NCBI RefSeq assembly: GCF_964019385.1
Contig: NC_088649.1
Location: 16,340,347-16,404,346, forward strand
DNA from: Sycon ciliatum
Taxonomy: Eukaryota; Porifera; Calcarea; Leucosolenida; Sycettidae
Reading direction: 5' to 3'
Length of the DNA: 64,000 nucleotides
Part shown: in pieces, positions 17,454-25,346 of the stretch
Numbering within the stretch: position 1 is the first letter of the stretch
Layout of the letters: each line of letters opens with the position of its first letter
Translations under genes and position numbers: made by a program
Notes under the pieces: generated by a model
Databases searched by the model: none
The model's input: only the letters and a program-made list of their open reading frames with translations
What the model was told of the DNA's origin: nothing

Positions 17454-17535
17454 CAACAACAAAAACAAAAACAACAACAATAACAACAACAACAACAACA
17501 ACAACAACAACAACAACAACAACAACAACAACAAC
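17454..17535 (+). repeat. (CAA)n tract before LINE copy A
   Basis: Imperfect then perfect CAA/ACA repeats, directly abutting the 5'-truncated LINE at 17536. Same repeat as the LINE 3' tails. Confidence 0.9.
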
Positions 17536-20093
17536 TGCTGAACTGGAAAGAAGCATTAAAACCGCTAGAGCCGAAGGTGACGACCTCCTACTACTTGGAG
17601 ACTTCAATGCCAAGAACAGTGCGTGGCTCACCACAGACAGAACAAATTGCCTTGGGGACGACATACAAACTCTTCTGCACACATACGGCCTCACACAACA
17701 TGTCAGATTCCCTACTTACATCCGCCGACAAACACCTCTCTCATGTCTAAACCTTGCTATCTCCTCACTCCACTGCAATGATGTTCATATCTAATCACTT
17801 CCACCGTTTGGCGCATCCGATCACACTACTATCAGTGGCCACATCAATAATCAACTGCCCCCCCCCCCCCCCATAATTAACAACTCCCCTCCACGAGCCA
17901 GAAGCACCACATTCTGGTCATGGACAGACAGCACTATCCACCTTCTTCGAGAAGCCCTTTCATGCACAAATCTCAACCACCATCCAAACCAACACGACCC
18001 ATGCCCAGTTGACACCTTCTGGCGATCCTGGCGCGACAAAGTCCTGAGCATCGCCCAAGAACACTGCCAAGTTACTCGCACTCACCCCCCCCCCCCCTTG
18101 GGACAGGAAGAACGTGCCAGCACGACCATGGATATCAAATGGCCTCTTGAAAGAGATCAAGGATAAGCGCAGAAAACACAGAATATACCTTCACTCACGC
18201 TCGCCCGACGACTGGAACACGTTCACTGCCCAAAGAAACCGTGTCACCACTCTCCTGCGTCATGCAAAATCGGAATTCGTAAACAACTCAACAGCCTCCT
18301 CTACTTCCCTACACCGCCTCATGAAGCACCTAACTACAGCTACAAAACAACGCATACCCGAACTTGTCAGCCAAGCAACTTCTGCAACGACACCAGCACA
18401 AAAAGCCGCTGCCCTCAACGAATTTCGTTATTTTACAGAGCAAGCTGTCCGTGGCCAATGCGGATGAGCAAACTCCAGCCATCAACACCACCCCTGACAT
18501 CCTCAGTCCCCTTCAAGAAATCTTGACTTCCCAAGCTGAGGTCGAAAAACTCCTCTGCGGAGTTGATACCAACAAAGCCCCGGGTTCAACTCTATTCCAA
18601 ACCGCTTACTCAAAGAAGCGCCTAAGGAACTTGCACCGTCGCTATCCTCCCCCTTTAATCTTTCATTCCAAACCGGAGAAATCCCACAGGAGTGGAAAGA
18701 TGCCACCATTACTCCAGTACCCAAGCCTGGTGACCCAACCCAACCAACAAACTAGAGACCGATCTCTCTCTTGAGCACTACATCAAAAATCCAAGAAAAA
18801 ATTGCACATCAACTCCTCTACAAGCACATCACACTCCACCTACACAACCAGCAGTCCGTATTCTGTGAGAAGGACGGCACTGAGCAGCAGCTTGCCAGTC
18901 TCGTCCATACACTCTCCACGACGGGAAACACGTCAATGCCTGCTTTTTTGATCTAAGCAAGGCCTTCGATCGTGTGTGGCATGCAGGCCTTCTAGCAAAA
19001 CTCTCCCACTATGGTGTCCAGGGCACCGCCCTGGAGTGGTTCCGACTGTACCTGTTGGGCGTCGGCAGAGTATCCAGGTGGATGGCGACCTATCGCCTTT
19101 CCTCGAGATCCCTGCCGGCGTCCCTCAGGGATCTGTTCTTGGCCCGCTTCTATTCCTCGTCTACACCATAGACCTTCCACACGCATGTGAGAATCCCGGC
19201 ACCACCTGTTGCCAATTTGCAGATGACACCGCTCTGATTTCCATAGCGAGAACTCTTCAAGACTGAACGCGAAACTTACAACAGAGTGTCACAGCAGCTG
19301 GAGACTGGCTTCAAAGATGGCACCTGCTGGTTAACACAAAGAAAACAGTCATCCTCCCGTTCTACCACAATAACAGCCCCCCTGAACAGCTACCCCAGAT
19401 CACCCTCACATCTATCAGACATACATACTACCTATATTCTTATATGCGAGCAATGCTCTCAAACCGTTGTCACACACTTCCCTTGACAGGCTAGAACGAC
19501 TCCAGCGGAAAGCCGCCAGAATATGTCTCCACCTTCTCCTTTACACACACTTAGAACACTCCCACCTTTTGCATCGCATCAAATGGCCAACATTATTTTC
19601 ACGCTTTAAAGTTAAACATAATAATTATTATACTCTTCGCCACAATTATGCCCCATCACATATACTCTCGCTGCATACTGCTAGCGATGTGCAACCTTCG
19701 TATAATTTACATCGCTCTCGTACTTGGCACTTGCCAACTCCGCGGACTGACCGCTGTCTCCATTCTCCCCTGTGCAAGGCCATTCATTACTTTAATTGCT
19801 TGCCCATCCAGCTTCGCAAAATCCCTTCTCGTACTCCCTTCAAATCCCAGATATCCCTGCTGTTGCCCAACTCTGTATGCTCGTGTAGCGATCACACCTG
19901 CCCGTACACTTAAGTACACAACTCGGTATGCTCGTGTAGCGACCACCCCTGCCCGTACACTTGAGTAGTCATTAACCCCTTGGCCCTGGCCACCCAATTG
20001 GTCCTCACACACAATTCTTCCTCACTCTTTCTCCTTTCTTACACTTTTATCTCTTATTGGCCACTGGCTATCGTGAGAATAAAGATTTGAAAC
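17536..20093 (+). pseudogene. Jockey-superfamily LINE copy A, 5'-truncated and mutated
   Basis: About 90% or better by eye to ORF2 of copy B (from 22338 onward), starting inside the endonuclease region. It carries frameshifts, expanded C tracts near 17858-17872 and 18087-18098, stops, and an internal deletion near 19408 corresponding to about 165 bp (24200-24365) of copy B. RT motifs survive in pieces (KAFDRVWHAGLL, FADDTALISIA near 19214). The 3' end has the same 3' UTR and GAGAATAAAGATTTGAAACAAC end as copy B and then runs into (CAA)n. Confidence 0.92.
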
Positions 20094-20462
20094 AACATCA
20101 TCAACAACAACAACAACAACAACAACAACAACAACAACAACAACAACAACAACAACAACAACAACAACAACAACAACAACAACAACAACAACAACAACAA
20201 CAACAACAACAACAACAACAACAACAACAACAACAACAACAACAACAACAACAACAACAACAACAACAACAACAACAACAACAACAACAACAACAACAAC
20301 AACAACAACAACAACAACAACAACAACAACAACAACAACAACAACAACAACAACAACAACAACAACAACAACAACAACAACAACAACAACAACAACAACA
20401 ACAACAACAACAACAACAACAACGACAACAACGACAACAACGACAACAACAACAACAACAAA
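20094..20462 (+). repeat. About 365-bp (CAA)n array joining two LINE copies
   Basis: Over 115 CAA units, pure except for three CGA interruptions near its 3' end and a final A-run. It is the tail of LINE copy A and directly precedes the 5' UTR of copy B. Translations give poly-Gln or poly-Leu, which are not genes. Confidence 0.95.
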
Positions 20463-20557
20463 AAAGTTGAGTAGGAGTAGGAAGCAGATTTTGGCGCTCC
20501 CAGTTTTTCCCTAGATTTCTGCGGATTGAGGCTTACCCGGGGTACCAGACCCCAACC

Positions 20558-24875: not shown

Positions 24876-25047
24876 GTACGCAACTCTGTATGCTCGTGTG
24901 GCGACCACCCCTGCCCGTACACTTAAGTAGTCATTAACCCCTAGGCCCTGCCCACCCAATTCTTCCTCACTCTTTCTCCTTTCTTACACTATTATCTCTT
25001 ATTGGCCACTGGCTATCGTGAGAATAAAGATTTGAAACAACAACAAC

Positions 25048-25254
25048 CGACCTGCTTTCAAACAAGAAATCTGCTCACTGCTGATTAACTCAATCTGCTC
25101 CTGCAGCGCTCACCCTCTCCCATACTTGTAAAGTTCAAAGTGATGTAAATCACTTTCCAACTGTTTAACCCACAATCTCACCCTCTCATAAATTTATCTC
25201 TTATTGGCGATGGTGCCATCGTGAGATTAAAGAATTCAAACAACAACAACAACA
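25048..25254 (+). mobile_element. 195-bp 3' end of a second LINE subfamily (C1) plus (CAA)n
   Basis: Nearly identical to 32006-32197, the 3' end of the fragment at 30826. It follows directly on the CAA tail of copy B and ends in its own short (CAA) tract (25240-25254). It is a severely 5'-truncated insertion. Confidence 0.85.
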
Positions 25255-25346
25255 GTAGTGTGTGAGTAGGAGCAGGAAGCAGATTTTGGTGCTCCAAGTT
25301 TTTCCCTAGATTTCTGCGGATTGAGGCTTACCAGACCCCAACCATG
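25255..25346 (+). mobile_element. LINE 5' UTR fragment (C2)
   Basis: Matches the 5' UTR of copy B (20466-20560) up to the ORF1 ATG, apart from a 10-base gap, then diverges. It again starts next to CAA repeats. Confidence 0.8.

Follow-up and report, generated by a model that had tools for sequence, protein, structure and literature searches.

The window analysed here, a 64-kb stretch of contig C8 of Sycon ciliatum (C8 16340347-16404346; genome 538 Mb, 313 contigs), holds four LINE pieces that follow one another in the same direction, each directly behind a CAA tract. This arrangement raises the question of whether the element inserts into CAA repeats in general, whether it seeks the tails of its own earlier copies, or whether such chains were copied as DNA. 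Our preferred reading, to which we give a probability of roughly 85%, is that the LINE usually inserts in a (CAA)n tract, in its own sense direction, by target-primed reverse transcription with pairing of its tail, and that chains are a by-product. The copies examined display a strand-specific CAA 5' flank, empty paralogous sites, extreme 5' truncation and tail-to-head chains.

The chain in the window

The chain reported by the initial annotation is real. Copies A, B, C1 and C2 all lie on the plus strand with their 5' junctions on CAA tracts (4/4), and the tails of A, B and C1 form the 5' flanks of B, C1 and C2, respectively (Table 1). Runs of (CAA)≥4 number only five in the 64 kb, four of them in the chain and the fifth an empty target at 45809, while no (TTG)4 run occurs in the window. 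The association of the chain with CAA is beyond chance.

Table 1 Features of the LINE chain and of the empty CAA site, in window positions.
Feature	Position	Strand	Remarks
(CAA)n tract, partly degenerate	17452..17535	+	5' flank of A; no recognisable LINE tail upstream
Copy A, 5'-truncated decayed LINE	17536..20094	+	Starts at about B position 1874; internal deletion, frameshifts
(CAA)n tract, ~370 bp	20091..20461	+	Tail of A and 5' flank of B
Copy B, full-length, young LINE	20462..25036	+	Identity to L011; matches of the 3'-end word
ORF1 of B, 435 aa	20558..21865	+	Single knuckle CX2CX3HX4C at residue 184
ORF2 of B, 971 aa	21960..24875	+	Exo_endo_phos endonuclease and RVT_1 reverse transcriptase
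Short CAA tail of B	25033..25046	+	GAAACAACAACAAC; 5' flank of copy C1
Copy C1, 5'-truncated 3' end, sister family E	25047..25240	+	98.5% to 32004-32198
(CAA)4 tail of copy C1	25241..25252	+	5' flank of copy C2
Copy C2, first ~95 bp (5'UTR) of a related element	25253..25346	+	87% to B positions 8-100
(CAA)5, empty paralogue of the C13 site (L037/L088)	45809..45823	+	Within a Penelope-like-looking element (by eye)

Copy B is full length, as had been proposed, with ORF1 and ORF2 intact. Its ORF2 combines an AP-like endonuclease with a reverse transcriptase (matches to PF03372/PF14529 and PF00078), the content of an APE-type LINE, and no CX2C motif occurs anywhere in it. B is a young element: over the 1,400 bp of its 5' part that were compared, L011 does not differ from it (100% identity), and among 25 other loci that align over more than 700 bp, 22 are at least 98% identical to B (L014, L016, L019 and L021 have no such alignment). 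Copy A is 94.6% identical to B over 1,885 bp and 92.3% over 700 bp, and the tract on its 5' side also precedes A in L002 and L003. The assignment of copy C1 to a second subfamily was confirmed by its match over 195 bp to window 32004-32198. Copy C2 had been described as a 5'UTR, and it is indeed a 5'UTR fragment, but only the first ~95 bp are present. From 25346 onward the body of the element is absent, which sets copy C2 apart from ordinary 5'-truncated insertions.

Downstream of copy C2 lie an inverted ORF1-like fragment (26829-26978) and an older B-like 3' piece (27137-27942), which are possibly the scattered rest of its element. Elsewhere in the window, 38509-42369 encodes a 1,286-aa ORF with a reverse transcriptase, whose C-terminal part we take, by eye, to resemble restriction-endonuclease-type LINEs, and of three tRNA-Ser(TGA) genes at 37121-37778, two lie within a 308-bp tandem duplication.

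CAA flanks across the genome

The initial annotation had named a majority of non-CAA 5' flanks among genomic copies as the outcome that would speak against targeting; in both samples of junctions the majority was CAA. At 5' ends, where every junction of the 33 exact matches to a 24-bp 5'UTR word was read, 28/33 lie on a CAA run of at least 9 nt and 0/33 on TTG. The five misses comprise two copies on mixed CAA/CAG with an 8-nt run (L014, L019), one that abuts an internal ORF1 piece, itself preceded by a long CAA tract (L028), and two inner copies of a 125-bp tandem repeat (L029, L030). For 3' ends we used an exact 26-bp word from the 3' end of B, which has 442 matches; 98 places were read, a non-random sample made up of the first places by contig order (contig C1 and part of contig C2). 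They gave 102 rows, from which four same-place repeats, three rows cut by the locus end and two misaligned rows were dropped, leaving 93. In the 30 bp upstream of the 5' end, a CAA run of at least 9 nt is present in 74/93 and one of at least 12 nt in 68/93; a TTG run is present in 0/93. The background at 7,992 window positions outside the chain is 20 for CAA and 8 for TTG.

The 19 misses in this 3'-end sample include seven with shorter or mixed CAA/CAG repeats (by eye) and twelve that are not CAA-like, and these 12/93 junctions count against our reading. None of the twelve has a target-site duplication longer than 5 nt. At several non-CAA junctions a long CAA or CAA/CAG stretch is confined to the 3' side, possibly because the 5' side was lost. 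By size, pieces of 70 bp or more have a CAA flank less often (15/26) than shorter ones (59/67), a further point against our reading.

Orientation is equally strict beyond these samples. One truncation point falls within 5 nt of CAACAACA in 108 matches genome-wide, at no fewer than 73 distinct places, and within 5 nt of TTGTTGTT, the TTG counterpart, in none genome-wide. Sister family E has CAA at 18/26 junctions and TTG at 0/26, a count that is not independent of CAA surroundings because the loci were fetched for B. Eight further full-length copies with no related tail upstream, read at both ends (the 3' tail was found in 8 of 12 fetched regions), all have CAA on the 5' side and a CAA tail.

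Targeting had been framed either as a preference for CAA repeats or as one for the element's own 3' tails, and the first option is the broader and the better of the two. Under a mechanical rule, no related tail is recognisable upstream of 73/93 junctions, and the C13 and C191 sites described below are CAA tracts other than the element's own tails. Targets also include the tails of unrelated AATAAA...(CAA)n elements (L018, L033, L038; by eye) and CAA/CAG microsatellites (L124, L126). Own and sister-family tails are one source of CAA, but most junctions lie elsewhere: by this rule a related tail precedes 20/93 sampled junctions and 13/30 full-length copies. Both counts are lower bounds because the flanks are short and the rule is strict; by hand, full-length copies follow a related tail in 14/25 groups. 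The difference between 13/30 and 20/93 under the same rule (p = 0.03) is not relied on.

Empty sites and the formation of chains

If CAA is the target, it should be able to exist before the insertion. The (CAA)5 site of the window is an empty paralogue of a filled site on contig C13, to which it is 96.1% identical over 1,499 bp on the left and 94.9% over 253 bp on the right; because this paralogue has (CAA)5 and no insertion, a CAA target can predate insertion. The 3' junction of the filled C13 site has no CAA tail, the right flank following almost directly on the element's GATTTGA. At C191 (by eye) a copy sits inside a CAA/CAG tract, between flank sequence and a GA repeat, and in a similar stretch next to it both tract and GA repeat are present but the element is absent. 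No further empty sites were picked out among the matches listed for the loci read, and all of these empty and filled comparisons are paralogous, not allelic. They bear on the idea that the LINE inserted at random and that slippage later expanded a short CAA-like target duplication into the flank. The C13 tract, with 13 units when filled against 5 when empty, fits such expansion, but the empty sites already have (CAA)5 or a CAA/CAG tract, and we regard slippage as the source of the flanks as very improbable.

The locus of copy A adds a second view of the same question. A and its left flank (from 16668) are duplicated twice elsewhere on contig C8 at 94-95% identity (L002 and L003, at 26.33 and 26.35 Mb), and A is present without the left flank in view at 26.91 Mb (L004). 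Seen against window 16222-20423, the sequence after A's tail differs in each copy. In L003 the tail is a short CAA/CAG tract with no LINE behind it and right-hand DNA unlike that of the window; in L002 a B-type piece, 97% identical to window 23602-23701 over 100 bp, begins directly on the CAA, and in L004 the sequence directly on the CAA resembles, by eye, the beginning of the endonuclease of a further LINE. The tail that bears B in the window is thus empty in one copy and holds other pieces in two, showing that A's own tail can serve as a target. As the right flank of L003 was not found in the window, L003 offers a tail without an occupant and falls short of a complete empty site.

These copies also bear on a concatemer made in one event, in which reverse transcriptase, on reaching the 5' end of an RNA, would jump to the CAA tail of a second one. 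Tail-to-head links would result from such jumps, and L028, where a B 5' end sits directly on an internal ORF1 piece that starts on CAA, fits them. However, A occurs elsewhere with its left flank and then another piece or none, which makes A and B separate events, and single copies on CAA and empty sites are left unexplained; we hold this route to be very improbable. In L028 itself (C12:7450797) the B 5' end is fused to internal B fragment 939-1213, which starts on about 400 bp of CAA; the expected 3'-end region reads N, and the fusion is a possible template switch.

Chains are found well beyond the window. On contig C1, 103 tails (86 B and 17 E) form 20 same-strand and one opposite-strand neighbour pair within 5 kb, with 0.53 expected, although some of these pairs are DNA duplicates. 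Contigs C2 and part of C3, searched with another 3'-end word (52 places), gave eight same-strand pairs and no opposite one. Chains might be mainly a matter of DNA, through unequal crossing-over and segmental duplication instead of repeated insertion. Consistent with this are a 125-bp 5'UTR triplication on contig C12 (L029-L031), 45-bp repeats at L111, a single truncation point repeated in L052-L054, one flank common to L035, L036 and L125, the duplicated A locus, and a shared link between copies of the C1 and C2 type. Yet the truncation point and the family often differ between linked copies, copies of the A tail carry different pieces or none behind them, and the 73/93 junctions without a related tail lie outside recognisable chains. 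DNA-level copying as the main origin of the chains is accordingly unlikely in our view. The claim of self-propagating arrays stands in part: the element's own tails can be hit, but several links were copied as DNA.

One such link is in the window. On the same contig, L020 repeats the truncation point of copy C1 and, behind it, a 5'UTR junction of the same type, while L023 has a similar junction with a different 5' cut; since the link recurs, it was probably copied as DNA. The common start of copy C1 in the window and in L020 also fits a HeT-A-like model, in which a 5' tag derives from a transcript started upstream. We do not favour reading copy C1 as such a tag, as many upstream neighbours are long copies.

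Several rearranged loci were seen alongside these chains. On contig C8, L014, L019 and L021 have a common rearrangement, in which B 3-271 is joined to B sequence running from 2764 downward in inverted orientation. This form is either a non-autonomous derivative or duplicated DNA. L035 and L036 (contig C13) and L125 (contig C14) have the same non-LINE 5' flank, with 99.7% identity over 1,490 bp between the first two, and this flank is either duplicated DNA or a 5' transduction. A giant head-to-tail LINE array suspected at contig C1:6.04-6.29 Mb (L129-L132) was rejected, the one unit read whole being a DNA-level tandem repeat. Its unit of ~4.66 kb includes decayed LINE pieces beside a long CAA tract; the CAA tracts there are mostly ~4.6-5 kb apart, and the listed ones are all in one orientation.

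Mechanism and relation to known LINEs

In the mechanism we propose, the (TTG)n strand would be nicked, and the (CAA)n tail of the RNA would pair with the TTG end, from which reverse transcription would be primed, a pairing that would orient the copy in the CAA direction. Target-primed reverse transcription with a nick in TTG fits the strictly kept orientation, the agreement between tail and target, and the occurrence of copies of only 26-50 bp. Every insertion adds a CAA tail and with it a fresh target, and the CAA tails hit include own, sister-family and unrelated ones. Since the tail is the same repeat as the target, copies also land behind one another in head-to-tail chains, some of which were later lengthened or copied as DNA.

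The site could be chosen either by the endonuclease or by tail pairing. At the far end of the second possibility, insertion would be endonuclease-independent, at breaks or gaps of fragile CAA tracts, with annealing of the tail to exposed TTG alone giving specificity. The identity of target and tail repeat, the lack of TTG junctions and the lack of target-site duplications longer than 5 nt at the twelve non-CAA junctions fit this, and the intact endonuclease domain of the young copy speaks against it; the points on neither side are decisive, and we consider it an unlikely alternative to nicking.

Truncation in the 3'-end sample peaks at B4533-4536 (27/93) and B4551-4557 (29/93), B4557 being the edge of the search word. 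Two possible folds of the 3' hairpin gave z-scores of only -1.9 and -1.7 against shuffles, which makes a link between truncation peak and hairpin a guess. Some of the 26-50-bp copies may be local microsatellite duplications, for example L111.

Among known LINEs, the APE and reverse transcriptase content of B fits the Jockey superfamily (CR1/L2/Rex1/Crack/Daphne/Jockey), whose members are not known to have RNase H, and would fit other clades as well; the general look of the motifs makes the element a candidate member. In a search of PDB that is not specific, the best solved relatives of the reverse transcriptase were LINE-1 and R2; an equally non-specific search with the endonuclease gave no LINE endonuclease at E values up to 10. 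Dong has a restriction-like endonuclease, whereas Waldo, Mino, TRAS and SART of the R1 clade combine an AP-type endonuclease with a simple-repeat target, and R1 ORF2 carries a zinc knuckle. Unlike R1-clade LINEs, which we take to have that ORF2 knuckle and several in ORF1, the present element has no CX2C in ORF2 and a single knuckle in ORF1.

SART1 ORF1 is described with three knuckles (PMC4120745), and among AP-type clades site-specific LINEs are attributed to R1 and Tx1 only (PMC13295347). The reported targets are (TAA)n for Dong (PMC2887409) and (TG)n for Togen, which is treated with NeSL, a clade with a restriction-like endonuclease (PMC4640811); our element is like both in its simple-repeat target and unlike them in its AP-type endonuclease and in targeting CAA. 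Bov-B and other RTE LINEs have the same (CAA)n tail, but flanks resembling the tail are described as rare in Bov-B (PMC13295347) and are usual here. Zepp of Chlorella and Coccomyxa, an L1-type element, is reported to insert into its own copies and to form tandem arrays mostly of 3' ends (PMC8226300). The likeness lies in nested insertion and tandem arrays; however, Zepp is described in Coccomyxa as one cluster per chromosome (PMC8226300), while in the present case small chains occur at scattered places and insertion is mostly into other CAA tracts, a related tail lying upstream in 20/93 sampled and 13/30 full-length copies. HeT-A and TART of Drosophila likewise form head-to-tail non-LTR arrays, at chromosome ends (PMC3828246, PMC5537684). 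The present arrays are interstitial, the listed places falling, by inspection of positions, at many interior contig positions.

Microsatellite-specific LINEs are already known, and with CAA at 74/93 and 28/33 junctions and with empty sites, paralogous and not allelic, the CAA-targeting element is a variant of them. No CAA-targeting LINE was recognised in the titles and opening abstract lines of the open-access literature, a weak negative. We tentatively suggest, at somewhat less than even odds, a site-specific AP-endonuclease LINE outside R1 and Tx1 whose target is its own tail repeat, whose insertions recreate that target as a self-renewing niche, and whose 5' truncations cluster at a possible 3' hairpin.

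The role of the microsatellite-like 3' ends of LINEs is described as lacking consensus (PMC13295347). Here the tail equals the target in most copies read, orientation is strict and paralogous empty sites exist, so that pairing of tail and target becomes directly testable. Insertion into CAA explains CAA microsatellites that contain LINE fragments down to 26 bp, which normally go unnoticed, and CAA targeting offers a natural origin for tandem LINE arrays.
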